NCBI GenBank assembly: GCA_027459625.1
Contig: DAIDHP010000005.1
Location: 1-64,000 of the forward strand
Direction of reading: 5' to 3'
Length of the DNA: 64,000 nucleotides
Origin: Chthonomonadales bacterium
GTDB taxonomy: Bacteria > Armatimonadota > Chthonomonadetes > Chthonomonadales > CAJBBX01
Every line of letters begins with the position of its first letter. The first letter of the stretch is position 1. Made by a program: the position numbers and the translations under genes. Below are positions 26,809 to 40,155 of this stretch, in pieces. The notes beneath the pieces are model-generated. The model was not told the DNA's origin. It did not search any database and saw only the letters and a program-made list of their open reading frames with translations.

Positions 26809-27231
26809 TCATTTTGCAGATGAGACCAAACTCTCCGCCAAACGCTCCACCCTCTCCCAAACTTGATCGCGAATCTCCCGCACCTTCTCCAAAGGTTGAC
26901 CTGCGGGATCGTCCAGCCCCCAATCCTCGGTCACTATGAACCGCGCCGGGCAGGCTTCCGCATCCACGCCGCATCCCATGGTGATCACTCGAGCAGCCCC
27001 ATCAACCATCTCCTGGGTCAGTTGCTTCGGCTTCATTCCATCCATCCAAAACCCTATCTCCCCCATCGCCGCGACGACAACGGGATTGAGTGCGCTTCCC
27101 GCGATGGTGCCGGCGGAGACCGCCCGCAACGGCAGATTCCTCTCTTCTGCGAATCTATTCATGAACGCCTCCGCCATTTGCGATCGACCGGAGTTATGCA
27201 CGCAGACAAACAATACCGTTTTCACTTTCAT
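26809..27231 (-). CDS. arsC: Arsenate reductase, thioredoxin-coupled (LMW phosphatase fold)
   Basis: A 140-residue enzyme reducing As(V) to As(III). The P-loop is VCVHNSGRSQ with nucleophilic Cys10. The relay cysteines are Cys87 and Cys94 in MGCGVDAEACP, and EDWGLDDP near 102-109 holds the general acid Asp. This pattern marks the thioredoxin-dependent class related to low-molecular-weight tyrosine phosphatases, not the glutaredoxin class. It lies 69 bases after arsR on the same strand and would be repressed from the arsR promoter. A small thioredoxin-like protein encoded across the divergent promoter region (28018) is a possible electron donor, although the general cell thioredoxin is equally likely. 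Confidence 0.93.
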   Translation of the reverse strand: MKVKTVLFVCVHNSGRSQMAEAFMNRFAEERNLPLRAVSAGTIAGSALNPVVVAAMGEIGFWMDGMKPKQLTQEMVDGAARVITMGCGVDAEACPARFIVTEDWGLDDPAGQPLEKVREIRDQVWERVERLAESLVSSAK

Positions 27232-27300
27232 CCTTATATGCCTTGTATCTCTAATTTAGTATGGGAATATTGCGTGAAACAGGCTTGAGAAGCCGACTTC

Positions 27301-27684
27301 TTATTCGCATCGCATCTCATTTTCGCAACAACCCGATCCATTTTCCGAGGAGATCATACCCAAATAGCTTGTCAAATCCTCCAGAGCTTTGCGATCGACT
27401 TGACAGATCATGTTCTTGCCCTTGCGCTGCATCGAAATCAAGCCCGCGTTTCTCAGCTCCTTGAGGTGAAAGGATATGGTGGAGGTGATTCGATCCTCCC
27501 CTGTTACATGGCAGCAAACCTCCCCGGCGGTTGCTCCGTGGAGCATCTGAACCTCGCCGGATTCACCTAACGCCACAGGCTCGCAAAGGGAGCACAGGAA
27601 CTCGAAAATCCTCAAGCGCGTGTGATCCCCCAAAGCCTTGAACATCGTCGATATCTTATTTAAGCTTGTTGATTGTTTTAACAT
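27301..27684 (-). CDS. arsR: ArsR-family metalloregulatory repressor
   Basis: A 127-residue winged-helix repressor: MFKALGDHTRLRIFEFL near 14-30 and the recognition helix in STISFHLKELRNAGLI near 68-83, followed by a RKGKNMICQVD wing. Candidate As(III) ligands are Cys31, Cys34, Cys57 and Cys58 in the first half; a further cluster sits at the tail (Cys119, Cys120, Cys126). Which set binds arsenic cannot be told from sequence. The N-terminal insert between 31 and 58 is longer than in the short plasmid ArsR proteins. It heads a minus-strand arsR-arsC unit whose promoter is overlapped by a perfect palindrome, so autorepression is very likely. Confidence 0.93.
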   Translation of the reverse strand: MLKQSTSLNKISTMFKALGDHTRLRIFEFLCSLCEPVALGESGEVQMLHGATAGEVCCHVTGEDRITSTISFHLKELRNAGLISMQRKGKNMICQVDRKALEDLTSYLGMISSENGSGCCENEMRCE

Positions 27685-27688
27685 TCTT

Positions 27689-27714
27689 CATATTTCCATG
27701 ATTATGGAAATATG
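27689..27714. promoter_or_regulatory. ArsR operator (perfect palindrome)
   Basis: CATATTTCCAT (27689-27699), a GATT spacer and ATGGAAATATG (27704-27714) form a perfect 11-base palindrome four bases upstream of the arsR start codon. It overlaps the arsR -10 box and the expected transcription start, the classic position for repression. A related palindrome lies in the arsM promoter. Confidence 0.85.
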
Positions 27715-27740
27715 CTAACCTATATGAGGGAATTTGTCAA
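27712..27740 (-). promoter_or_regulatory. arsR promoter
   Basis: On the minus strand TTGACA (27740 to 27735), a 17-base spacer and TAGCAT (27717 to 27712) form a sigma70-like promoter. Transcription would start near 27704, inside the operator, giving a leader of about 20 bases. Confidence 0.75.
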
Positions 27741-27750
27741 TGGATGCGAT

Positions 27751-27783
27751 TGAACGATCTGTCAGGGGATCTATTATCGTTCA
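27751..27783. promoter_or_regulatory. Inverted repeat in the arsR / redox-cluster divergent region
   Basis: TGAACGAT (27751-27758) and ATCGTTCA (27776-27783) are perfect inverted arms 17 bases apart; one more matching pair follows one mismatch. The element does not match the ArsR palindromes. It may be the site of a second regulator or a simple stem-loop. Confidence 0.35.
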
Positions 27784-27912
27784 TTTCATGAGCGAGGATG
27801 CTCTTGTGACATGCATCCAATCGCACCAAGAAGGGTGGGTTAATGACCATCGCCCGATTTCATAAATTTTGAGGTTAAATTCCTGAAAACTTAAAAAAAC
27901 ATGGGACTGGAC

Positions 27913-27941
27913 TTGACAAATATATGGCATAATGGTAAAAT
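27913..27941 (+). promoter_or_regulatory. Promoter of the lipoyl/DGC redox cluster
   Basis: TTGACA (27913-27918), a 17-base spacer and TAAAAT (27936-27941) form a near-consensus sigma70-like promoter about 76 bases before the first gene. ATATGGC and GCCAATAT flank the -10 box as an imperfect inverted repeat, a possible operator. No copy of the ArsR palindrome was found here. Confidence 0.7.
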
Positions 27942-28017
27942 AGCCAATATAATTACGCTATCTGATCTATCCTGCGAGATCACAGTCATACCGACTCAAA
28001 ATGGCGGAGGAGGAGCG

Positions 28018-28272
28018 ATGAAAATTCAAATTCTGGGAACGGGCTGCGCCAAGTGCAACGCTTTGGCGGCGAACGCGGAACAAGCCCTGAAGGAAACGGG
28101 GATAAAGGCCGAGATCGAAAAGGTTACGGACATACAGGAGATCATGAAATTCAAGGTGCTCATGACTCCCGCGATAGCGATAGACGGAAAAGTGTTGGCG
28201 GCGGGAAGGGTGGTTTCACCTGAGGATATCGGGAAATTCCTAGTCGCGGCGGGAGGAGATCAACATGGATGA
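28018..28272 (+). CDS. Mini-thioredoxin (TM0996/MTH895-type small redox protein)
   Basis: An 84-residue thioredoxin-fold protein of the short archaeal/anaerobe type. It opens MKIQILGTGCAKCNAL with the redox pair Cys10 and Cys13, and has a cis-proline at MTPAIAIDG (Pro51). ATG 28018 is chosen because GGCGGAGGAGGAGCG lies directly upstream; the frame is open back to 27901, but that part carries the promoter. Such proteins are often encoded with permeases or arsenic genes and carry electrons between thiols. It overlaps the next gene by eight bases and starts a cluster of six genes. It could serve the lipoyl carrier at 28919 or the arsenate reductase; neither is shown. Confidence 0.85.
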   Translation: MKIQILGTGCAKCNALAANAEQALKETGIKAEIEKVTDIQEIMKFKVLMTPAIAIDGKVLAAGRVVSPEDIGKFLVAAGGDQHG

Positions 28273-28642
28273 GCAATTGCCGGGCTTGGTCATGTGTGTT
28301 TGCACGGGAAAATGCCCCGGGTTTTCCAAAATGGACATTTGGGATTTTATCAATCGCGCACGCGTGGAGTTGCCGGTTGAATACGGTATGATCCACCCTC
28401 AGCTATGCGAGGAGGATGGCGATAGATTTTTGGCGGACCTTCTTAAATCCAAACGTCCTCTGGTGGTTGCAGCCTGCGCACCAAACATGCAAAGGAAAAT
28501 GTTTCGAGACTCATTCGCCGCCGAAGGCATGGATATGAAAAAAGATATGATCCCATTGGATATTCGGGACATGACCACCGACGAGGCGATAAATCTCGTG
28601 GCGAAAGCGCTGGAAGAGGAAACGGAGGAAGAGAATGTCTGA
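28265..28642 (+). CDS. Stand-alone HdrA N-terminal-domain-like protein
   Basis: A 125-residue protein that lines up with the first ~140 residues of heterodisulfide reductase subunit A and lacks its FAD and ferredoxin domains. VMCVCTGKCPGF (Cys11, Cys13, Cys17) stands where HdrA has its first Cys-rich strand. A PQLC at Cys48 follows, and LVVAACAPNMQRKMFRDSF with Cys71 matches the HdrA ASCSPR..E..FR block. In HdrA this domain binds an extra iron-sulfur centre; whether the isolated domain does so is inference. GGAGGAG precedes ATG 28265. It overlaps both neighbours by eight bases, so translation is coupled and it probably pairs with the ferredoxin that follows. Confidence 0.65.
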   Translation: MDEQLPGLVMCVCTGKCPGFSKMDIWDFINRARVELPVEYGMIHPQLCEEDGDRFLADLLKSKRPLVVAACAPNMQRKMFRDSFAAEGMDMKKDMIPLDIRDMTTDEAINLVAKALEEETEEENV

Positions 28643-28922
28643 GACAACCTTCATGGGTGTTCCTCGGGAAAAGATCCCTTGGTATCCAACCATCGATTAT
28701 GATAAATGCAATTTTTGCATGGAGTGTGATGCGTTTTGCCCGCATCAGGTGTACGAGCACCGGGAGGGGGATCGTAAACTCGTGGTGGCGAACCCAAATA
28801 ACTGCGTGGTTTTCTGCCGGGCATGCGGAAAGACCTGTGGTCCGGACGCCATCTCCTTCCCCGTCAAATCAGAGATTCTAACGCTGATTAAAAATCTTCG
28901 AACAGAGGAGTTGGTGGGATGA
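28635..28922 (+). CDS. Two-cluster 4Fe-4S ferredoxin-like protein
   Basis: A 95-residue electron carrier. The first motif is CNFCMECDAFC (Cys25, 28, 31, 35; CxxCxxCxxxC). The second is CVVFCRACGKTC (Cys57, 61, 64, 68), with one extra residue in the first gap compared with a standard bacterial ferredoxin and Gly instead of Cys-Pro at the end. It overlaps the HdrA-like gene by eight bases and the next gene by ATGA. Its probable role is to feed electrons to or from the HdrA-like protein and, through it, to a dithiol/disulfide centre. A signal peptide is absent, so it is cytoplasmic. Confidence 0.85.
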   Translation: MSETTFMGVPREKIPWYPTIDYDKCNFCMECDAFCPHQVYEHREGDRKLVVANPNNCVVFCRACGKTCGPDAISFPVKSEILTLIKNLRTEELVG

Positions 28923-29770
28923 AACGCGCCATTCTTTCCTGCTCCGGCATGGACAAACAGATGGGATCGTTGGCAAGGGAGTTAGCGATCCGATTGAATG
29001 AAAAAACCGGTGATGAGGTTGTTTGCCCTACCCTTCTCGCCTCGCTTCCCGCAAGGTATGAAGAGCTGTTGAAGGCGGCGTCCTTGGTTGTCATTGACGG
29101 ATGCGGCACTCGTTGTGCTTCCAAACTGGCAAACAAATACAACGCCAAGGTTGAGAAGAAAATCCTTGTGTCCGAAGCGGCGAGGGAATTGGGAATCGAT
29201 CCGGAGAGTGGACTCACCCCGGGACCCAATGGGTTGAAACTGGTGGAACAACTTCTGCGGGATGTGGAGCGCGACCTAAGCGAGGAGACAACACCCGGTA
29301 ATTCCGTTATGGAGTTGGCTCCGCCGGAGGACTTTCTCATCGTCACCCACGACAAATACCAGTTTAAGATTCCAAAGGAGGGGTTCCTCTTCAACGAAAA
29401 CGATTCCTGGGTGCGCCCCGTTGGCGACAAAGCGCGTGTCGGAGTCTCGGATTACGTGCAACAGAAGCTTACGGATATCACCTATTTCGAACCTCCCGCG
29501 TTAAACGCGAATGTGGAGCAGTTCGGAGAGTTGGGAACGATCGAATCCACCAAATCCCTTCTGGAAATCGTCGCCCCGGTGGCTGGCAAGGTGACGGCCA
29601 TGAACATGGAGTTGACGGATAACCCCGGACTGATTAACGAAGACCCCTACGGTTCGGGATGGATTGCGGAAATGGAGATGTCGGATTTGGCAAGCGATAC
29701 GGAGTTGCTTCTGGACGGAGAGGCGTATGCGGAGGTCGTGAAAAGAAAGGCGGCCGAGGACGCCGGTTAA
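28919..29770 (+). CDS. DGC domain fused to a GcvH-like lipoyl carrier
   Basis: A 283-residue fusion. Residues 1-115 form a DGC (putative zinc-binding) domain: SCSGMDKQMG at Cys8, Cys36, then VVIDGCGTRCAS with Asp60-Gly61-Cys62 and Cys66. Residues about 155-275 match glycine-cleavage H protein: NDSWVRPVGDKARVGVSDY, GELGTIESTKSLLEIVAPVAG with the lipoylation Lys at 212, and NPGLINEDPYGSGWIAEME. No P, T or L proteins of glycine cleavage are encoded nearby, so a role in glycine breakdown is unlikely. Lipoate-binding H-like proteins are known to serve Hdr-like sulfur oxidation complexes, and dihydrolipoyl thiols bind As(III). Here the carrier sits in an arsenic island between a ferredoxin and two more DGC proteins. 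The start overlaps the ferredoxin stop as ATGA. Confidence 0.8.
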   Translation: MKRAILSCSGMDKQMGSLARELAIRLNEKTGDEVVCPTLLASLPARYEELLKAASLVVIDGCGTRCASKLANKYNAKVEKKILVSEAARELGIDPESGLTPGPNGLKLVEQLLRDVERDLSEETTPGNSVMELAPPEDFLIVTHDKYQFKIPKEGFLFNENDSWVRPVGDKARVGVSDYVQQKLTDITYFEPPALNANVEQFGELGTIESTKSLLEIVAPVAGKVTAMNMELTDNPGLINEDPYGSGWIAEMEMSDLASDTELLLDGEAYAEVVKRKAAEDAG

Positions 29771-29794
29771 ACGAAAAACGAGGGATTGTGAGAA

Positions 29795-30211
29795 ATGAAT
29801 GGAAAAACCGTGTTAGTGATCCCATGCAGCGGGATGGGAAAGGTGCATGGGCTGATAGGCAGAGAAGCGACATACATGGCCGTTGAGGATTTGGCTCCGG
29901 ACCGCGCCGATACGATATGTCTTGCGATGTTAGTCAAGGGCGAGCCTGCAGCTTTAACGACGGTTCGAAAACATACCTGCATAACGCTCGATGGTTGTCC
30001 GAAGGCGTGCGCCCGTAAAAACGTGGAGATGGCGGGCGGGGAGGTGGCAAAGGCGATTCGCATCGTGGACGCCTTTCGCAATCATCGCGGCGCACAGCCC
30101 GGCACCGCCACCACGCTCGCGGAGGATGGATGGGTGATCGCCCGAGAAATCGCGGAGAATGTGGTGGAGGAAATCAATAGGATATGCAAGGGCATGGAGG
30201 ATATGCAATGA
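29795..30211 (+). CDS. DGC-domain putative zinc-binding protein
   Basis: A 138-residue protein made of one DGC domain: VIPCSGMGKVHG with Cys11, Cys42, Cys62, then ITLDGCPKACARK with Asp66-Gly67-Cys68 and Cys72. The family is named for the conserved Asp-Gly-Cys and is proposed to bind zinc through its cysteines; no reaction is known to me. It lies 24 bases after the DGC-lipoyl fusion and ends inside the start of the next DGC gene (ATGA overlap), so the three DGC proteins are made together. The C-terminal half has two helices (EVAKAIRIVDAF and VIAREIAENVVEEINRI) as in its paralogue. Confidence 0.78.
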   Translation: MNGKTVLVIPCSGMGKVHGLIGREATYMAVEDLAPDRADTICLAMLVKGEPAALTTVRKHTCITLDGCPKACARKNVEMAGGEVAKAIRIVDAFRNHRGAQPGTATTLAEDGWVIAREIAENVVEEINRICKGMEDMQ

Positions 30212-30927
30212 GTGCGGAAACGGTCAAAGTGGGAATCATCTCCTGCAGCGGAGAGGAGATTCCAGGCGGCGCCATTTCCCGCCTTGCAGCAAGACGCGTG
30301 CTGGAGTTGTTGCGCCCGAACAGTACAGTGACTATCTGCCTCCCGCTTTTTTTGGCTGGCAATGAGGCCGAGCAAGATTTCGCAAGGACACATCCCACCA
30401 TCGTAGTGGACGGATGCGACAAACGATGCGCCAAGTGGGGAACCGAGCAATACAGCGGGCCGGTGAATGCGGCGCTGGTCGTGGAGGATGTTATCGGTGC
30501 GGACAGATTATCAAAATGCCATCGTTCCCTGAGAAACCAGAACGCCGATGACGAGGAGGCGGTACGGATACTCGCGGACAGGATATCCGAGGAGGTGGAC
30601 GCCATTCTCGCCATGGAGAACGGTGCGGCAATCGAGAACGCTTCGCCGAAGGAATGCGTATGCTCCTGTTCCAGCCCCATTCCCGCATCGTTGTTAACGA
30701 TTGACGGGGAACGAGTGGAGATCCCCGGACTGATGCTCATTTTCGAACAATGCATGAAAAAAGAAGTCTCCATGGGTGAGAAGGGGTCGGAGGAGCTATT
30801 GAGGACAGTTCAGGTGTATCACCCGATTGAAACGGATAAGGAACCCGCCTACCGCGAAGCATTGATGAATGCGTATCGGGAATATTTCCGTTCCCATCAA
30901 TTCGTGCCGCTGAGTTCCATCAGATAA
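30208..30927 (+). CDS. DGC-domain protein with Cys-rich linker and extra C-terminal domain
   Basis: A 239-residue protein. ATG 30208 overlaps the stop of the previous gene as ATGA, which decides the start over the in-frame ATG at 30184. Residues 1-135 are a DGC domain: IISCSGEEIPGG with Cys13, Cys44, and VVDGCDKRCAK with Asp68-Gly69-Cys70 and Cys74. A linker holds CVCSC (Cys150, 152, 154), a possible metal or As(III) site. The C-terminal 75 residues (LTIDGERVEIPGLMLIFEQC, then ELLRTVQVYHPI and YREALMNAYREYF) form a small helical domain that I have seen attached to similar redox proteins but cannot name. It is the last gene of the six-gene cluster; 205 bases then lead to arsM. Confidence 0.75.
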   Translation: MSAETVKVGIISCSGEEIPGGAISRLAARRVLELLRPNSTVTICLPLFLAGNEAEQDFARTHPTIVVDGCDKRCAKWGTEQYSGPVNAALVVEDVIGADRLSKCHRSLRNQNADDEEAVRILADRISEEVDAILAMENGAAIENASPKECVCSCSSPIPASLLTIDGERVEIPGLMLIFEQCMKKEVSMGEKGSEELLRTVQVYHPIETDKEPAYREALMNAYREYFRSHQFVPLSSIR

Positions 30928-31043
30928 TCCAACCTGGTTGGCGCAATGGGACGCCGACCTTACCACTTACAAACGTTTTAAGCATTTCAGGGATGAGTTG
31001 AAGAGAAGACAATGAATCCCGATGTTTTAATTTCAAAAGAGTA

Positions 31044-31073
31044 GTTACATTTCGATAATTATAGAAGTATAAT
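31044..31073 (+). promoter_or_regulatory. arsM promoter with embedded ArsR-like operator
   Basis: GTTACA (31044-31049), an 18-base spacer and TATAAT (31068-31073) form the likely promoter. The spacer itself, TTTCGATAATTATAGAAG (31050-31067), is an imperfect palindrome (7 of 9 arm pairs). It agrees with the arsR operator core at 17 of 22 positions. A repressor bound here would block RNA polymerase. Confidence 0.7.
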
Positions 31074-31132
31074 AACAATAAGCGTGCCGAGTTCACGCTG
31101 AAATATCCTTTTTCATTTATAGGAGGCTGAGC

Positions 31133-32053
31133 GTGGAAACAAACAGTAATTTAACAGATCGTTCGGATGTGCGCGATTTGGTTCGTGAAAAATATGGTGA
31201 AGTGGCGATCAAGGTTTTAAACGGTCAAAGGGCGTCCTGCTGCGGCGGGGATTCCCCGTGTTGCGAGGATCTATCGAACCTTCAATTTGGAATAGGCGGA
31301 AAAAATAGCGTAGCTGAAAGCGTCTGCAGTTCGGATGTGATGGTTTCCGGTCACTATTCGGACAAGGAAGCTTCGGAAATTCCGGAGGCGGCTTTATTAG
31401 CAAGCCTTGGCTGCGGCAATCCAACGGCTTTGGCTGAGTTAAAACCGGGAGAGACGGTTCTTGACCTCGGTTCCGGCGGTGGCATCGATGTGCTGCTATC
31501 GGCAAGGCGAGTGGGGCCGGCCGGATTCGCCTACGGCTTGGATATGACGGATGCCATGCTTGAATTGGCAAACCGGAACAAAGCGGAAAGCGATGTCGAA
31601 AACGTCGAGTTTCTCAAGGGGAACATCGAGGCGATGCCGCTTCCCGATAACATGATGGACGTGATCATTTCCAACTGCGTCATCAATCTTTCCGGTGACA
31701 AATTGTCGGTGTTCCGCGAGGCGTATCGCGTCCTGAAACCCGGGGGAAGGTTCGCCGTTTCGGATATCGTGACGGATGGTGAATTGCCGGAGTTCATTCG
31801 AAAGAACCCCTCGGCGTATGTGGGGTGTGTGGCGGGAGCGCTTCGAAAGGAGGAGTATCTCGCTCTGCTCTCAAATGCCGGCTTCACGGAATGCTCGGCG
31901 GAACCCACTCGAAAATACACCTTCGAGGATTTGGCGTCGATTTTGGGCAGCCCTCCGGAATTGACCGATCTGCCGGATGAGGAGAAGCAAAGCATGAATG
32001 GAAAGGTGATGAGCGCTTTTATTCGGGCTTCAAAGCCAAAAGGAGAGTTGTGA
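31133..32053 (+). CDS. arsM: Arsenite S-adenosylmethionine methyltransferase
   Basis: A 306-residue enzyme that methylates As(III). GTG 31133 is used because AGGAGG lies six bases upstream. The SAM site is [14 protein letters not shown] near 109-122, with [12 protein letters not shown] and [16 protein letters not shown] following. Cys94 (SLGCGNPT), Cys182 (ISNCVINL) and Cys232 (YVGCVAGAL) match the conserved As(III)-binding positions of ArsM. An extra N-terminal cluster, CCGGDSPCC (36-44), is common in bacterial ArsM proteins. Its stop codon overlaps the start of acr3, so methylation and export are coupled. It is probably controlled by ArsR through the palindrome at 31050-31067. Confidence 0.95.
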
Positions 32054-33162
32054 TGAGCGACGGCAAAGAGGGAACGGCTCCCAACTGTCATCCCCGCATG
32101 GGAGGAAAGCTATCCTTCCTGGATAGGTTCCTTACGCTCTGGATTTTCCTCGCCATGGCGGTCGGAGTGGGATTGGGGTATTTCGTGCCATCGGTGGTGC
32201 GCGATATCACCGGCATGTCCGTAGGAACCACCTCGATCCCTATTGCAATCGGCTTGATATTGATGATGTACCCGCCTCTCGCCAAGGTGAAGTACGAGGA
32301 GTTGGGTGAGGTGTTTCGCAACTGGAAAATCCTGACCCTCTCTCTGGTGCAAAACTGGATCATCGGACCCATCTTGATGTTTGCGTTGGCGTTGGCTTTC
32401 CTTGCGGACAAACCGCAATTCGCCATCGGTCTTATCATGATCGGCTTGGCGCGATGCATCGCCATGGTGATCGTATGGAACGAACTCGCCAAAGGCGATA
32501 CGGAGTATGCTGCGGGTCTGGTGGCGTTCAACTCCATCTTCCAGGTGCTGTTCTATTCCGTCTACGCTTGGTTCTTCATCAAAGTTCTGCCGCCTCTCTT
32601 CGGGGTGCATTTCACAGGCGTGGACCTCTCCAGGATCACCATCGGAGCGATTGCGGAGAGCGTGGCTCTTTACCTCGGCATTCCTTTCGCCGCAGGCATC
32701 GTCACGCGCTTCACTCTGATCCGTGCTCGGGGCAGGGAGTGGTATGAGAGGAGTTTCATCCCGCGTATCTCCCCGATCACGCTCGTGGCGCTGCTCTTCA
32801 CCATCATCGTGATGTTTTCGCTCAAAGGCGGATACATCGTGCGCATCCCCATGGATGTCGTGAGGGTGGCTATACCTCTGTTGATCTATTTCGTGGTGAT
32901 GTTCCTGATCTCATTTTACATGGGAAGCAAATTGGACGCTGACTATTCCAAGACCGCCACGATCTCCTTCACCGCGGCCAGCAATAACTTCGAGTTGGCG
33001 ATCGCCGTGGCGGTGGCGGTATTCGGCATCAACTCGGGAGCGGCGTTCGCCGCGGTGATTGGCCCTTTGGTGGAGGTACCCGTCCTGATCAGCTTGGTAA
33101 ATGTCGCGCTCTACTTCCAGAAAAGATACTTCCCCACTGGAATCGTAATGCAGAATGGCTAG
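32053..33162 (+). CDS. acr3: Arsenite efflux permease, ACR3 family
   Basis: A 369-residue inner-membrane transporter with about ten hydrophobic helices. [35 protein letters not shown] and [19 protein letters not shown], with the conserved Cys at about 135, are ACR3 signatures. A late block [18 protein letters not shown] carries the second conserved transport motif. It exports As(OH)3 using the proton gradient. ATG 32053 overlaps the arsM stop (ATGA), with AGGAGAG upstream; an in-frame GTG at 32050 is an alternative. A strong hairpin follows at 33173-33207, closing the arsM-acr3 unit. Confidence 0.95.
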
Positions 33163-33207: not shown

Positions 33208-33726
33208 AATTGGGACGTAACCCGGTTTAATGGGTGTTTGGCGCCGCCGCTGTTTGAAGATAAATGATCGCCTTGAGATATTTTAGGGGTCGACAATTGA
33301 TACCAAGCGTCAAATGGCATGGGCATAATTTTGGTTCCTCTCTGTATTGTGTGGTTATACGACAGGCGGGTATCTCTGCATTGAACTCATTCCATCCCGA
33401 AAAAGATGTCCAATGGAGTGTGCCGATACGCTTGCAAAGCCCGAAGGAGGATGTGTTGCGGGCGAACCGAGTTATTAATATTCAACTCCGTCGAGGTTGG
33501 CGGATGGATTTCAAGCCATTTGGGATATCGTACATCGGGATTCATCCCGGTGGGAATACGGAGCGGAACCATGATAAACGCCGTCTTATTCAATATCGCT
33601 GCTTACTCATCCGTTCATCACCCACAGGAAACAGCGAAGAACCTTTAATTATTTCACCATAACATGAAACTAAATCAACATGAAATCCTGCAACACCATC
33701 TTTTGAAATTTCTAATTTAGGCGAGT
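33208..33726. other. Intergenic stretch without recognisable gene
   Basis: About 520 bases between the acr3 terminator and the RHS locus. Short open frames exist on both strands (for example 33264-33662), but none has a ribosome binding site, a familiar motif or matching codon use. Base composition falls from GC-balanced to strongly AT-rich at about 33650, which marks the edge of the RHS region. Confidence 0.4.
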
Positions 33727-33945
33727 CTACAAAACATTCACGAAATATATATAAAATGACAATGAAATAAATTGGTAATTTGAGATAAAAATATGATTTA
33801 TAATGTATACTACAAACTTTAATAGTATTAGTGTAAATATATCACTTAATAAATCTGAAAATAATCTTATTTTAATATGAATAATAATTGGATATATGAG
33901 CAATAATGTTTTATATCTTTTATGATAAATAATAAATGTATTCAT
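33727..33945 (-). CDS. Small AT-rich hydrophobic protein, candidate immunity gene or remnant
   Basis: A 72-residue, strongly hydrophobic protein with two likely membrane helices (TLLLIYPIIIHIKI and DIFTLILLKFVVYIINHIFI). The DNA is very AT-rich, so an open frame of this size could arise by chance. Its position is what makes it of interest: it lies directly downstream of the third RHS tip, after a hairpin, exactly as the two other membrane-protein genes follow their tips. It may be an immunity protein, or a truncated one. Confidence 0.35.
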   Translation of the reverse strand: MNTFIIYHKRYKTLLLIYPIIIHIKIRLFSDLLSDIFTLILLKFVVYIINHIFISNYQFISLSFYIYFVNVL

Positions 33946-33990
33946 AAATCTTTCTCATGATACGCATAATTTATTGTATTATTAATATAA

Positions 33991-34022
33991 TATATATCCG
34001 ATATATAATAATCGGATATATA
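33991..34022 (-). terminator. Hairpin after RHS tip 3
   Basis: TATATATCCGAT (33991-34002) and ATCGGATATATA (34011-34022) are perfect 12-base arms with an eight-base loop. The hairpin starts 21 bases after the tip's stop codon and precedes the small membrane gene. Confidence 0.5.
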
Positions 34023-34043
34023 TTATATATTTAGAATATATCA

Positions 34044-34492
34044 CTAATGATTTATTATATTTTTTAATATAGATGCTTTTGCCATCATTTCCAAATACTC
34101 ATAAAACTCACCAGGGGAAAAATGACAAAATGCAATGCCTGCTTTAAGAACTTTAGTGATATAACCTGTAGTCCACCAATAATATAAACCTCCAGCTACA
34201 GTCCCATCTACTAACGAACTTGATGTACTCTCACCATCTCCATAATATGCTCCAAGTGAGGTACCAATTGCAGATCCGATTGCCCCTCCAACATCAGCTA
34301 CCCAAGGGGCGACTGTAATTCCAAATCCAGGCAGTAAAATATTTACTATACCTACTCCTATAGCCGCACCTACAATTCCACCTCCAATTGCCCATGATAA
34401 ATGCCCGCCAATAAGCATATGGAAGTTGATTCAGATCTGTATCCCTGGTCAGGAAGCTTCCGGTGGCAGGGTCGTAATACCGTGTGCCAACC
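34044..34492 (-). pseudogene. Displaced RHS C-terminal tip 3, frameshifted from its core fragment
   Basis: Reading leftward from about 34492, the sequence encodes VGTRYYDPATGSFLTRDTDL and NQLPYAY, the closing motif of the RHS core found in the full gene at 36982. The core frame then runs off. The tip continues in another frame from ATG 34418 (124 residues), and the expected DPSG junction is missing, so a small deletion and frameshift separate them. The tip is glycine-rich and hydrophobic (AIGGGIVGAAIGVGIVNILL, GGAIGSAIGTSLGAYYG), like a glycine-zipper membrane segment. It is probably silent until recombined onto an intact core, or it is a relic. Confidence 0.7.
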
Positions 34493-34601
34493 AGAGACTA
34501 TATGTCAACTGACATGTTAATCTGTCGTCATTATCATTGTTTTGACAGCTAATGTACGAAAACAAGTGCTGAAATAAGGTTATGTCTTTAGCACCATTTG
34601 T

Positions 34602-35183
34602 TCATAGCATATTATTGTTAGTTGTTTTAAATTCGAATCGCCAGACGCCTTCTCTTTCTATAATAAGTGTATCTTGTTTGCTTGTGACCAAACGTCCAAT
34701 CTGTCGATTTATAATGATAGATAATGTAAGTGCGACAACAAAAAGAAGAAATAATATCAATGCAACTATTTCTACCATAATGTGAATTGATCCAATATCA
34801 ACTTTTGATATGTTCTCTTGGATATACACAATAACGAATTGCAATCCTAGTAATATCCCCATAAATCCGTGGGAAATATTTGCTGCGTTTCGTTTTTGAT
34901 TATATAACAGCCAATTTTGTGACATTAATTCAAGTGCTGTAAATATTTTAAGTTTATCTGTATCGTCAAAAATTATTTTATCCTCTTTAACTGATTCATA
35001 GGGTTCATTTTTATCTCTTACAAATTTCAAGTTTGGGAACTTGTTATCTATAATATCGCATAGATATTTAGACCATGGATTGACATTTGATTTTAATGCT
35101 TCTAATACGCAAATGAGAATACCGCCTATTATAGATAAGAGTCCTGCTATTAATATAATTATTGATAGAAAAGAGTTTTCCAT
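34602..35183 (-). CDS. Three-helix membrane protein, candidate immunity protein for RHS tip 2
   Basis: A 193-residue protein with a hydrophobic N-terminal helix (SIIILIAGLLSIIGGILICVL) and two more helices (HGFMGILLGLQFVIVYIQ and VEIVALILFLLFVVALTLSII). A charged cytoplasmic stretch lies between the first two (about 33-95), and a short basic tail follows the last. I recognise no family. The gene is AT-rich like the other two membrane genes of the locus and lies just downstream of the displaced RHS tip at 35314, in the same direction. The standard layout of RHS loci places the cognate immunity gene there; the function is inferred from position and membrane nature only. Confidence 0.6.
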   Translation of the reverse strand: MENSFLSIIILIAGLLSIIGGILICVLEALKSNVNPWSKYLCDIIDNKFPNLKFVRDKNEPYESVKEDKIIFDDTDKLKIFTALELMSQNWLLYNQKRNAANISHGFMGILLGLQFVIVYIQENISKVDIGSIHIMVEIVALILFLLFVVALTLSIIINRQIGRLVTSKQDTLIIEREGVWRFEFKTTNNNML

Positions 35184-35264
35184 TATTTATATTGTCTCCT
35201 CTTCCAGTATTATATTTATATATTATTCTAAAATACTATAATGTGATATTTTGCATAATATCTA

Positions 35265-35301
35265 AATCGGCATCGAATATTAAATATATTCGACGCCGAT
35301 T
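35265..35301 (-). terminator. Hairpin after RHS tip 2
   Basis: AATCGGCATCGAATA (35265-35279) and TATTCGACGCCGATT (35287-35301) pair over 15 bases with one mismatch (wobble in RNA) around a seven-base loop. It begins 12 bases after the stop codon of tip 2. Confidence 0.5.
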
Positions 35302-35313
35302 ATAGAAACATAA

Positions 35314-36101
35314 TTAATAGGCACCCATATTATGCATGGCTCTGCCTAACCAACTAGTTAACGATTGGCCCATCTCAGTTTTAGTTACGAACCAATTACT
35401 CATTTTGTATCCGCAGTAGGCGCCCCCAATGACAGCTGCTGGATATAAAAGGGTGATATCAATGGTTGTGAGGCCAATACCCGTTACAGTGGTAGTGGTT
35501 TCTGTCGATATTGAATAACCACTCATCATTGTAAAGTTATCTCCAGCTTTATAAATACCCCACCATTGAGACAATTGTCCTGGAGTCGTATAAGTTGTTG
35601 TTGATCCTTTACCCAACATTGAAAAGATATATCCCAATGAACCCAATAAGCCGCCACTTTCGGCAACTGGTGTATCATCATGCCCGCTCGGATCCACCCC
35701 GTCTATAGGGTCATCCCCGCAGTACGCATACGCCAGTTGGCTAAGATCGGTGTCCCTGGTCAGGAAGCTTCCGGTTGCAGGGTCGTAATACCTCGCGCCG
35801 ACCTGCATGATCCCCGCGTCCCCGTCGTTGCGGTAGCCCGAGGTGGCTCCGAACTGGTATGGCGATGAGGTTGAATCGCTGGTTGCCACCGTGTTCCCGT
35901 AGCCGTCGTACGTCATTGCGGCGGTCACAACACCCGAGGCGTTAGTGAAGGTTCTCGCGGAGCCGAGAGCGTCGTACTGGAAAAACTCCCCGTTCCTTCG
36001 GATGAGGGAAACTCCGTAAGTGTAGGTTCCAGTGAAATTCCCTCCCTGCTCTTCAAGTATAACCCTTCCGCCGTCGTAGAGGGAGACGGTGGTCACGCCG
36101 C
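35314..36101 (-). pseudogene. Displaced RHS C-terminal module (core end plus tip 2)
   Basis: A 5'-truncated RHS gene. It opens abruptly at about 36101 with GGVTTVSLYDGGRVILEEQGG, nearly identical to the last core repeats of the full RHS gene, and a stop codon lies just upstream. It continues through GARYYDPATGSFLTRD and the DPSG junction (residue 138 counting from GTG 36096). The remaining 122 residues are a new tip unrelated to tip 1, with a hydrophobic glycine-containing segment (LLYPAAVIGGAYCGYKMSNWF). The shared core of about 410 bases would allow the tip to be swapped onto the full gene by homologous recombination. Whether the fragment is translated from GTG 36096 is unclear. Confidence 0.8.
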
Positions 36102-36324
36102 CCAGCCCTATTTACACTTGACATATGGATACTCGAAATGAATACGAAACTCCATTATTTCCAGGTTACAATCATTATTAAGAAATTAATATGATGAGTG
36201 CATTCCATGTTCGGCGGCGAGAAGAGCGTTTTTGTGGGTCCTTTTGATGTCTTCCCTATGGATGCAATTGATTTGGAGCTATGATACCCGGCTATCGTTT
36301 GTATATAAAAAAAAGCGAAAACAT

Positions 36325-36846
36325 TTAATTACATATATCCAATTCTTTTTCTAATGGTAGCCATTTAGATATTTCTGTTTTTATATGATTTATGTATTCT
36401 CTATCTCCAAACAGAGAAAATAATATATTCAATCCATTTGTATATTTTATGCTTAACACATATTGATCATTCAACATATATATTGTCCAATATTCAATAT
36501 CATTATTTTGAAGTTTATTTGTGAATTTATAATATTTCTTAGAGCAATAGCCATCAAATTCCACAAAATTAGTAATTATGTGATTATTTTTAAATATAAT
36601 TGTTTGAGATCGCAATGAAAAAATTAAAACAATATATAATATAATACTAAATGGATTATAGTTAGATTTGATAAATGTTATTAATATGTGACATACTAAA
36701 TAAGCCAATAATGAATTCCTTATAATTGTTAATAATATATATTTCTTCCAAAATTTATAAAACTCTGATGATGGATTCTTAATAACCATCTTTTGTTCAT
36801 TATGATAATATTCAATATAGGTATGCTGAGATTTAAACATAAGCAA
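36325..36846 (-). CDS. Two-helix membrane protein, candidate immunity protein for RHS tip 1
   Basis: A 173-residue AT-rich gene product with two membrane helices (ILLTIIRNSLLAYLVCHILI and FSIILYIVLIFSL). A C-terminal soluble part of about 100 residues follows, rich in Tyr, Asn and Ile and strand-like, resembling in layout the two-helix plus beta-domain membrane proteins of the bacterial PH type; that resemblance is loose. It lies 135 bases downstream of the full-length RHS gene, after a strong hairpin. By the usual order of polymorphic toxin loci it is the immunity gene for the active tip. Confidence 0.6.
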   Translation of the reverse strand: MLMFKSQHTYIEYYHNEQKMVIKNPSSEFYKFWKKYILLTIIRNSLLAYLVCHILITFIKSNYNPFSIILYIVLIFSLRSQTIIFKNNHIITNFVEFDGYCSKKYYKFTNKLQNNDIEYWTIYMLNDQYVLSIKYTNGLNILFSLFGDREYINHIKTEISKWLPLEKELDICN

Positions 36847-36887
36847 TTGGAAATTAATTATAGATGCAATTTGTTGATGATCGAAAA

Positions 36888-36933
36888 TTTATATATGGGA
36901 TAAAAAAATTCCTATTTCTATCCCATATATAAA
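36888..36933 (-). terminator. Hairpin between RHS tip 1 and its immunity candidate
   Basis: TTTATATATGGGATA (36888-36902) and TATCCCATATATAAA (36919-36933) are perfect 15-base arms with a 16-base loop. It lies 48 bases after the RHS stop codon and about 40 before the next start, so it could attenuate read-through or protect the transcript end. Confidence 0.6.
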
Positions 36934-36981
36934 GATAAATAATAAAAAATATTTATTTATGATTAAATGTTAAAATTCATA

Positions 36982-39900
36982 TTACCAGCGTCGCCACCAT
37001 TTCGAAAGGTAGCCAACACCATCGCCAATAACATCATGCAATTTCCCTATGCTAAGATTATCACCGATATTATGTAAAATCAATGATCTCATTGCTTGGG
37101 AAAAACCATATTCAGGTGTTTTACCTAATAAACCTCCTTCACCGAACAAATATCCTACAGTTGCAGCAGTAAAGCCATCGCCAATTGATTCCAATTGACC
37201 ATCACCTTCATATCGATCCCAAAAATACGTTGCAACTCCAGACCCTAATGCAGCTCCTAATGGATCACATCCTGTTAACCAAAATCCAATAAACGCACCA
37301 GCAGCAGGTATGATTATATTCATGGGATCATATCCTGAAGGATCCAACATATTAATCGGATTATTTGCGCAGTATATATATGCTAATTGGTTGAGGTTTA
37401 TGTCAAGTGTAAGAAAGCTTCCGGTAACCGGGTCGTAATACCTTGCGCCGACCTGCATGATCCCCACGTCCCCGTCGCAGCGGTAGCCTGACGTGGCTCC
37501 GAATTGGTAGGGGGAGGAGGTGGATCCCAATGTTGCGACGGTGTTCCCGAAGCCATCGTAAGTGGCGACTGCGGTCACAACGCCGGAGGCGTTCGTGAAG
37601 GTTCTCGCGGAGCCGAGACCGTCGTACTGGAAAAAATCCCCGTTCCTTCGGATGAGGGAAACTCCGTAAGTGTAGGTTCCGGTGAACATGCCGCCCTGCT
37701 CTTCAAGAATAACCCTGCCGCCGTCGTAGAGGGAGACGGTGGTCACCCCGCCCGCCGTGCGGCTTACCCTTCTTCCGAGGGCGTCGTAGGCGTAACCGAC
37801 AACGGACGTTCCGGTGGTTATCGACACAAGCTGGTTGTCGTAATCATACCCGAATGCCGTCGTCACCCCGTTGATCGTCTCCGAAATCCTGTCCCCGTCT
37901 GCGTCGTAAGTGTAACCGTTGTTTCCGGCGGAGAGAAGTTCGTCATCGCTGTCGTAATTATACGTTATCAGGTTACCGTTCAGCGTCTCGCTTAATCGGT
38001 TGCCCATCGCGTCGTAAGAGAAGCTCTCCGAGTAGGCGTTGGTCCCGGTTCGAACCTCCTGCGTCAACTCGTTCATCGCGTCGTAGGCGTAGGATACGAC
38101 GCTTCCGTCGGCCTCCGTAACTCCGGTGCGCATCTCGTCCGCGTTGTAGGCGTATGCGAACGAACTGAGAACCGTTCCCCCGGGCGACTTGTTCGCGACG
38201 CTCGTCAGTTCGCCGTCGGAGTTGTACGCGTTCGTAACCGCGCAGCCGTTGGGAAGGGTCTCGCCGGTTACGTGTCCGTCGCCGTCATACGAGTAGGTCG
38301 TCGATCCTGCGTTATCGGTCACTTCGCTGATCGCGTTCCGAGGCGTGTAGGAGTAGGAGATCACCCTTCCGCTCTGGTCCGTCTCGGAGGAGAGCAGACC
38401 GATCTGACCCGCACCGTCGTATGCGTAACTGATTGTCGAACCGTTCTTGCTCTCGTTCGTCATCCGGTTGTCCGCGTCGTAGGCTCTGGTCGTGGTTCCG
38501 GTTCCGTCCGCGAAGCCGGTCAGGTTGGAGTCCGCGTCGTAGGAAAAAGTGTGCGCGCTTCCGTCGGGGTAGTTGGCGGCGGTCACGCGCTCCCAGTTGT
38601 CAAGGGTGTATGTTACGAGGTTGCCCATGGCGTCGGTTTTGGACGTTCTCGTCCCCATCGCGTCGTACTGGAATCCCGTCATATTCCCCAGCGGGGTGGT
38701 GACGCTCGCGAGGTCCCCGTTGGCGTCGTAAGCGAAGCTGGTGTTGTGATTGTTCGCGTCCGTGCGAAGCGTCAGCTCGCCGTAACCGTTGTAGGTGGCG
38801 GTGGAGGAGGAGAGAACCGTCCCCGCCGAGTTCTCCTTTTGAATCTCGATCAGGTTGTCATGGGTGTCGTACGTGTTGACCGTCTTGTTCCCCATGGGGT
38901 CCGTCACCGTCAGAACCTTGTTGTGCGAGTTGTAGGTGTACGCGGTCGTCTCGCCGAGAGGGGTCTTCACGGTCAGGACGTTTCCGTTTCCGTCGTATGT
39001 GTAACTCGTCGCGTACCCGTTCGCGTCCGTCACGGATGTTTTGTTGTTATTGACGTCCCAGGCGTACGTTGTCGTGTACCCCGCAGCGTCAAGAATGGTA
39101 ATCGTTCTTCCGTTGCCGTCGTAAGTGTATGTCACGGCGTTGTTGTTCGGGTCGGTTACGGTTGTCGTCACCGGGTTGGTCGCGTAAGCGTAACTTGTCT
39201 TGTGTCCCATCGGGTCCGTTTCGCTCACGCACGCGTCCGCGCTCACAGGATACTGACTGTTGGTATTATACGCGTAATCGCTCGTCTCGCCTCGCGGATC
39301 CGTGAAGCTTGTGATGTCGTTGGTGGAGTTGTAGGTGAAACTCTCCGTGTCATACGCGCCGGACAGCGGGGGCAATGTCACGGTGGAGAGTTGCCCCGAG
39401 CCGTTGTAACCGAACGTCCAGGATCTCCCCAGGGGGTCCGTTACGCTCGTAAGTTTGTTTGACGCGTTGTAGCCGAACGTTAGCTCCCTGCCGGTCGGAT
39501 CGGTGACCAGGGTCGGGAGATTGTTCGCGTTTCGCGTGATCGTGATCGCGTTGCCGTTTTCGTCGCTGATTGACGTGCAGTAGCCCGTTCCGTTAATTGC
39601 GCTTGACGAGGAAAACCGATATGTGATCTGATTCCTGGTCGTAAGCGTGAAATAACCGTTTGCATTGTAAACGAGCGTGTCGTGGATTCCCGCAGGCGGA
39701 ACGTACGCTCCGTTGGAAAGGGTGAAAGCGTAGCCCTGATCGTCGCCCCAGTGAACGGAGGCGTTTCCGGAGCCGTCGGTAATGACGCAAATGTCATAGG
39801 TTCCCGACCACTTCGGCCCCAGTTCCGCGTTCGTGCCGCTCAGACTGCTGTGACAAATCGTGAAATCCACAGGCATCCCGCCCCTGGCGGTCCAGGAGAC

Positions 39901-40155
39901 TATCGGGATTTTCGTGCACTTGTTCCCCGTGCCTGTGTTCACGTCGGAAACGACGGTTTGCCAGTTGTATCCAGGTCCGCATACGGGACTCACCGTGTAG
40001 GGCGGAGGTCCTGAATATTTAATCATTGGTCCAAGGCTGGAAATGTTTGTTACCGCCGCGCTCGCGCTTACACCATGAACGAGACATGGCAAGGCAGCGA
40101 AGCAAAGCGTTATCGTTAATTTGATGAGTTTGAAGCATTCCTGAAATCGTGACAT
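36982..40155 (-). CDS. Full-length RHS/YD-repeat polymorphic toxin
   Basis: A 1057-residue exported RHS-type protein. Residues 1-34 are a signal peptide (LTITLCFAALPCLVHGVSASA). A DUF6531-like start follows (ARGGMPVDFTICHSS), then some twenty-five YD repeats of the form GRELTFGYNASNKLTSVTDPLG up to about 890. These build the hollow RHS shell. The core closes with GARYYDPVTGSFLTLD and DPSG at 938-941. The last 116 residues are a variable tip: glycine-rich and hydrophobic (NIIIPAAGAFIGFWLTGC, GAALGSGVATYFW), suggesting a membrane-acting effector and not a nuclease. Its size, signal peptide and lack of VgrG or PAAR partners point to a WapA-like, Sec-exported form. The core is GC-rich while the tip is AT-rich. 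Confidence 0.88.
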   Translation of the reverse strand: MSRFQECFKLIKLTITLCFAALPCLVHGVSASAAVTNISSLGPMIKYSGPPPYTVSPVCGPGYNWQTVVSDVNTGTGNKCTKIPIVSWTARGGMPVDFTICHSSLSGTNAELGPKWSGTYDICVITDGSGNASVHWGDDQGYAFTLSNGAYVPPAGIHDTLVYNANGYFTLTTRNQITYRFSSSSAINGTGYCTSISDENGNAITITRNANNLPTLVTDPTGRELTFGYNASNKLTSVTDPLGRSWTFGYNGSGQLSTVTLPPLSGAYDTESFTYNSTNDITSFTDPRGETSDYAYNTNSQYPVSADACVSETDPMGHKTSYAYATNPVTTTVTDPNNNAVTYTYDGNGRTITILDAAGYTTTYAWDVNNNKTSVTDANGYATSYTYDGNGNVLTVKTPLGETTAYTYNSHNKVLTVTDPMGNKTVNTYDTHDNLIEIQKENSAGTVLSSSTATYNGYGELTLRTDANNHNTSFAYDANGDLASVTTPLGNMTGFQYDAMGTRTSKTDAMGNLVTYTLDNWERVTAANYPDGSAHTFSYDADSNLTGFADGTGTTTRAYDADNRMTNESKNGSTISYAYDGAGQIGLLSSETDQSGRVISYSYTPRNAISEVTDNAGSTTYSYDGDGHVTGETLPNGCAVTNAYNSDGELTSVANKSPGGTVLSSFAYAYNADEMRTGVTEADGSVVSYAYDAMNELTQEVRTGTNAYSESFSYDAMGNRLSETLNGNLITYNYDSDDELLSAGNNGYTYDADGDRISETINGVTTAFGYDYDNQLVSITTGTSVVGYAYDALGRRVSRTAGGVTTVSLYDGGRVILEEQGGMFTGTYTYGVSLIRRNGDFFQYDGLGSARTFTNASGVVTAVATYDGFGNTVATLGSTSSPYQFGATSGYRCDGDVGIMQVGARYYDPVTGSFLTLDINLNQLAYIYCANNPINMLDPSGYDPMNIIIPAAGAFIGFWLTGCDPLGAALGSGVATYFWDRYEGDGQLESIGDGFTAATVGYLFGEGGLLGKTPEYGFSQAMRSLILHNIGDNLSIGKLHDVIGDGVGYLSKWWRRW

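Follow-up and report, generated by a model that had tools for sequence, protein, structure and literature searches.

The locus considered here raises the question of whether a full-length RHS (rearrangement hotspot) gene followed by two shortened copies with different ends represents a set of toxins with their immunity genes and, if so, where such toxins would act. It lies between positions 33,727 and 40,155 of the window, a stretch of 64,000 nucleotides (positions 1 to 64,000 of contig DAIDHP010000005.1, assembly GCA_027459625.1, Chthonomonadales bacterium), with all of its parts on the minus strand. An earlier reading of the letters alone, hereafter the sequence-only reading, proposed an RHS toxin locus with two 5′-truncated displaced copies carrying new variable C-terminal ends (tips), and this is confirmed by the open reading frames (ORFs), the domain matches and the DNA identity of the cores. 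It is well supported that this is a genuine polymorphic-toxin locus of the RHS type, in which a candidate immunity gene stands behind every displaced tip.

Architecture of the RHS locus

Copy 1 is an intact module. Its RHS gene (36982..40155) codes for a 1057-aa protein consisting of an N-terminus resembling a signal peptide (read from the sequence, with no predictor behind the assignment), a DUF6531 domain, 19 RHS-repeat stretches, the Rhs_assc_core and tip 1. Pfam recognises RHS/YD repeats (PF05593, E 5e-78) along with DUF6531, NCBIfam recognises TIGR01643 and TIGR03696, and the core has matches among solved Rhs shells, Tse5 included. The Rhs_assc_core model TIGR03696 is matched in copies 1 and 2 (E 4e-12 and 6e-13), each time ahead of the variable tip. 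Tip 1 (36985..37332) comprises 116 Gly-rich residues after DPSG and is assigned by profile to a family termed here T1. Behind it lies the candidate immunity gene imm1 (36325..36846; 173 aa, 21% GC), with two transmembrane (TM) helices placed by the structure model inside a PH-like domain.

Displaced core end 2 (35680..36107), recognised by TIGR03696 and by DNA alignment, shows no obvious start signal. It is about 425 nt long, slightly more than the 410 bases or so claimed previously, and is 84% identical to copy 1 at the DNA level over 395 columns. It is joined to tip 2 (35314..35682), which matches no known family and has the predicted length of 122 aa plus a stop, and then comes imm2 (34602..35183), a candidate immunity gene of 193 aa and 30% GC with one N-terminal and two C-terminal TM helices. 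Copy 2 has open frames for a tip and its neighbour but no shell.

The core remnant of the third module (34406..34497) measures about 90 nt instead of the expected 75 or so and is 82% identical to copy 2, its frame differing from that of tip 3 (34044..34403; 119 aa plus a stop), which belongs to T1 according to alignment and profile and bears a glycine-zipper pattern. The residues of tip 3 occupy 34403-34047, and the length of about 124 residues given by the sequence-only reading is obtained only when counting from the out-of-frame ATG at 34418, which yields a 124-aa ORF. The alignment implies that about 32 nt, DPSG included, were lost at this core end, shifting the core out of the tip frame. 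The imm3 relic (33644..33945) consists of a 72-aa ORF with 17% GC that continues in another frame and ends at a dispersed repeat; its likeness to the imm1 family is seen in the alignment, with weak backing from pairwise scores. Because of the core loss, the frameshifted imm3 and the cut made by the repeat, module 3 is evidently a decayed relic. The displaced copies show the composition of orphan cassettes, namely a partial core end, a new tip and a downstream gene. The order of tip, hairpin and AT-rich membrane-protein ORF, described before as repeated, is indeed present three times over, with the last module no longer intact.

Tips and ORFs are 98-135 nt apart in the window, and each gap contains a hairpin: hairpin 1 at 36888..36934 (−22.2 kcal/mol, z −7.7), hairpin 2 at 35261..35306 (−25.9 kcal/mol, z −7.1) and hairpin 3 at 33985..34028 (−21.0 kcal/mol, z −5.8), the z scores being relative to dinucleotide shuffles. 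No clear U-run is seen 3′ of the window hairpins. Strong hairpins were seen in tip-to-gene gaps of the window, L039-L042 and L095; they occur in all uninterrupted pairs from this genome that were examined and in both G012 pairs, and are weak or absent in most other relatives. In three relatives the called frames of tip and neighbour overlap slightly (gaps of −4 to −10), with no separating hairpin. Interrupted pairs were also observed (loci L040, L043 and L039): at C27_54512 and C38 about 1 kb of inserted DNA parts the tip from its membrane gene, and at C57_22412 the tip is followed by a 447-aa transposase-like ORF.

Tip and neighbour families in this genome and its relatives

The genome has about 17 core ends of this class, spread over eight contigs; most lack a shell, and they bear different short tips behind cores that are mostly 79% or more identical. 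Nearly all of these tips are short and unmatched, and most are followed by a small membrane ORF (at least 2 TM helices). RHS classes with longer tips are present as well, and neighbours with at least 2 TM helices accompany 9/10 of the short tips and 1/10 of the long ones in this genome (Fisher p 0.001). The neighbours of long tips are mostly soluble, those of tips with an AHH motif being soluble proteins of 231-252 aa. A second RHS class with tips of 210-220 residues was seen at L046 (C43) and L050 (C5:143-146 kb), where some tips are of the AHH type with homologous soluble neighbours and others are paired with 360-aa repeat proteins.

Similar arrays exist in relatives from the same family and the same order, where a single contig (in G006) carries as many as six tips whose core ends are complete. 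In this GC-rich relative, arrays of six and four such tips were observed on the short contigs of L084 and L085. Over 20 tip-neighbour pairs, collected by hand and partly related to each other, tip similarity correlates with neighbour similarity (Pearson 0.52, permutation p 2e-4; Spearman 0.20, p 0.002), the p-values being indicative because of this choice of pairs. Co-segregation is clearest for C27_52182/C69_12413 and for C45_28708/G007_C115/G008_C122. The sequence comparisons thus support the view that families of tips and neighbours co-segregate across genera, and since tip ends and membrane genes travel together in relatives, they are probably toxin/self-protection pairs. Position directly downstream and co-segregation both fit cognate immunity, of which protection by the neighbours is a prediction.

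Tips 1 and 3 form a single family, T1, which is also represented in G006, G007 and G012, each time with an imm1-type gene alongside. A profile of imm1 run against 291 genomes of the phylum found, beyond imm1 itself, two solo copies in this genome and otherwise only the immediate downstream neighbours of T1 tips in three other genera. The solo genes (L133:3955-4551, minus strand, and L134:4130-4723, plus strand), near which no RHS core was seen, are probably orphan immunity genes, because solo copies of an otherwise tip-linked family are a usual sign of orphan immunity. For tip 2, a relative was found behind an RHS core in G182, from another family of the phylum (E 7e-8, a single comparison), and the ORF after it has a three-TM layout like that of imm2. 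A match to imm2 in G263 was dismissed as an unrelated transporter-like gene.

The sequence-only reading saw in the tips no toxin family that it recognised, and no Pfam or NCBIfam model is above cut-off for either tips or neighbours; PADLOC and PDB sequence searches likewise gave nothing above cut-off for them, and weak matches to a xylulokinase, DUF4079, the GORK channel and ribosomal protein S14 were judged to be due to chance. The profile and structure searches which it called for brought out the relatives of T1 and tip 2 and no known family, the fold of tip 1 staying unmatched. No relatives of tips 2 and 3 were found by tblastn against plasmids, and a scan of a contig collection gave matches only at two loci of one unclassified relative, a metagenome-assembled genome.

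The AlphaFold2 model of imm1 (predicted local distance difference test, pLDDT, 69) begins with a beta hairpin and a two-helix hairpin, which are followed by five strands and a helix at the C-terminus. Foldseek ranks PH domains first (E 0.002-0.02) and also matches the membrane PH protein EROS (E 0.024); one homolog from the imm1 family matches Pfam Eros at E 0.12, below cut-off. Assigning imm1 as a PH-like membrane protein, possibly akin to the YcxB-like membrane PH proteins, is reasonable but unproven.

Proposed action of the tips and its alternatives

As an account of export, self-cleavage, toxicity, membrane target, protection and recombination history, we infer the following scheme, which, taken whole as RHS toxin-immunity cassettes with membrane-acting tips, is considered rather probable. 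A Sec-exported RHS polymorphic toxin would bear tip 1, with imm1 as the immunity gene next to it, and two older cassettes would have been displaced downstream with part of the core as newer tips recombined in, which fits the model of tip replacement by recombination (PMC3482391; PMC7043789). Tip 2/imm2, both of whose frames are open, would then be a silent spare and tip 3/imm3 a decayed relic. The tip would be held by the RHS shell until the shell cleaves itself near DPSG and frees it into a neighbouring cell, where it would enter the inner membrane and disrupt it through a pore or ion leak; the adjoining small membrane protein would block its own tip from the membrane side and so protect the producer.

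With regard to delivery, the Asp pair D918/D938 is kept in nearly all related core ends. The sheath gene of the type VI secretion system (T6SS), VipB, was not found in this genome or in 12 relatives (13 genomes; the control was positive), and T6SS delivery was rejected for this reason. As to the site of action, Gly makes up 15-18% of the tips, and GxxxG patterns beyond composition, typical of a glycine zipper, are detected in tip 3 (p 0.002-0.03). Since short tips go with TM neighbours and AHH tips with soluble ones, the membrane is the most likely site of action of the short tips, killing being predicted.

Several observations weigh against the scheme. The two Asp of the protease motif DPxG-X18-DPxG are 20 rather than 22 residues apart, the first DPxG is not kept as such, and the residue ahead of the first protease Asp, an Arg in nearly all related core ends, is Leu in copy 1 (window:37402-37404). 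The zipper pattern is not significant in tips 1 and 2, and their mean hydrophobicity is modest. The AlphaFold2 model of tip 1 is all-helical (five helices) and of low confidence (pLDDT 58), and a fold search with it gave no match. Members of the imm1 family are only 12-29% identical to imm1, with weak pairwise scores; imm2 and its G182 counterpart show no detectable sequence similarity, so that this pair is linked only through the tip and the common layout. To these can be added the manner in which the 20 pairs were collected, two of them having neighbours beyond insertions of about 1 kb. Finally, T1-like Gly-rich segments stand directly before enzyme-like domains (AHH, PD-(D/E)xK-like or HNH-like, as judged by eye from motifs) in RHS proteins from other families and on contig C43 of this genome. 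Such a segment may be a membrane-crossing module rather than a poison, and hydrophobicity alone is therefore no proof of membrane killing. The model of membrane damage put forward by the sequence-only reading thus holds as far as the TM neighbours of nearly all short tips are concerned and is weakened by the Gly-rich segments before enzymes and by zipper enrichment in tip 3 only.

The last of these observations leads to another explanation, in which the locus does consist of toxin-immunity cassettes but the Gly-rich hydrophobic part serves for translocation and a short C-terminal tail is the poison, acting elsewhere. The T1-like segments between RHS cores and nuclease-like or other enzyme-like domains speak in its favour, as does the nuclease effector Tde1, which is translocated by a glycine zipper (PMC10240207). 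On the other hand, about 35-50 residues remain after the Gly-rich part in tips 1 and 3, which is small for an enzyme and has no family match, and membrane neighbours go with short tips and soluble ones with AHH-motif tips, so this explanation is regarded as unlikely. Somewhat greater weight, still well short of an even chance, is given to the idea that the downstream cassettes are functionless decayed leftovers and only tip 1/imm1 matters, an idea compatible with membrane action of tip 1. Copies 2 and 3 do lack a shell and obvious start signals, and module 3 has suffered a frameshift as well as truncation at the dispersed repeat, but tip 2 and imm2 have retained long open frames in AT-rich DNA, and internal promoters can drive the expression of orphan Rhs cassettes, which recombination can also swap in (PMC7043789).

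That the small membrane ORFs have nothing to do with the tips, being simply AT-rich genes or artefacts of composition, is very improbable. AT-rich DNA does encode hydrophobic residues, and each ORF in the window is set apart from its tip by the gap and hairpin described above, but the open stretches of imm1 and imm2 exceed 2000/2000 shuffles (that of imm3 is unremarkable, 52 of 2000 shuffles), the ORF families co-segregate with the tips, and the neighbours are hydrophobic in high-GC relatives too.

Related systems and flanking sequence

Rhs toxins with displaced (orphan) toxin-immunity cassettes have been described previously (Zhang et al. 2012, PMC3482391), including the main and orphan rhs modules of Salmonella (PMC7043789). 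The present locus shares with them a full RHS gene with a variable 3′ tip, downstream cassettes with a partial core and the order of toxin, then immunity gene; it differs in that its tips and immunity proteins fall in no matched family, the immunity genes of short tips mostly encode membrane proteins, and no T6SS sheath gene was found in the genomes searched. On this comparison, the tips and the candidate immunity proteins are new families of a known kind of weapon.

Membrane-acting RHS tips are known from few examples (Tse5 and the predicted Tox-WTIP). A published parallel for a membrane tip with membrane immunity is Tse5/Tsi5 (PMC10684867, PMC12744356), from Pseudomonas aeruginosa (PMC10684867, PMC9637101), which has an RHS shell with detectable homology to the one described here and a membrane immunity protein, a membrane-active C-terminal tip being a proposal in our case. 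Tse5 is delivered by the T6SS, whereas the RHS protein here appears to be Sec-exported, and tips 1-3 have no sequence match among PDB chains and hence no homology to the Tse5 C-terminal toxin (CT) there, the completeness of the CT in the deposited Tse5 chain being unchecked. Tox-WTIP, an RHS-linked pore-forming tip (PMC3482391), is likewise short, membrane-spanning and located behind RHS repeats, but its Wx[ST]IP motif is not seen by eye in tips 1-3, to which no profile was applied.

Outside RHS carriers, the ionophore toxins of contact-dependent inhibition (CDI) and their CdiI proteins (PMC11630599) offer highly variable helical membrane toxins and short, hydrophobic, fast-diverging immunity proteins, with short hydrophobic ORFs accompanying cdiA genes; the carrier there is CdiA, not RHS, and the comparison is by description, the five-helix model of tip 1 being of low confidence. 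The glycine-zipper toxins EsxX/TelE (PMC12744356) resemble the tips in having a Gly-rich toxin end, membrane immunity and solo immunity genes, and differ in their LXG carrier of the type VII secretion system and in that the zipper here is significant only in tip 3.

A broader proposal, which must be called doubtful, is that the lineage is armed with a large number of RHS tips only 57-122 residues long, which would kill by acting in the membrane and would be countered by rapidly evolving families of membrane immunity proteins; one such family would block its toxin via a two-helix protein within a PH-like domain, an immunity fold not found described for antibacterial toxins. If confirmed, the lineage would supply recognition studies with numerous short membrane tips and the immunity proteins naturally paired with them, among them a family represented in four genera by both a T1 tip and an imm1-type gene. 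With T1-like segments present in one genome both next to an enzyme domain and without one, it becomes a testable question when a translocation module turns into a toxin.

On the left flank (window 26809-33162), arsenic-resistance-like genes were recognised by eye (ArsR-like, reductase-like, methyltransferase-like and ArsB/ACR3-like). The right-flank gene, sought in five relatives as a marker of empty sites, was not found there. The dispersed repeat that terminates imm3 (33331..33643, minus strand) is about 313 bp long and resembles a miniature inverted-repeat transposable element, with terminal inverted repeats of about 24 bp and the ends GGTTCTTCGCTGTTT / AAACAGCGAGGAACC. The genome contains around 20 copies of it, mostly about 90% identical, several of which were observed near RHS arrays, and the repeat is present in a relative from the same genus too.

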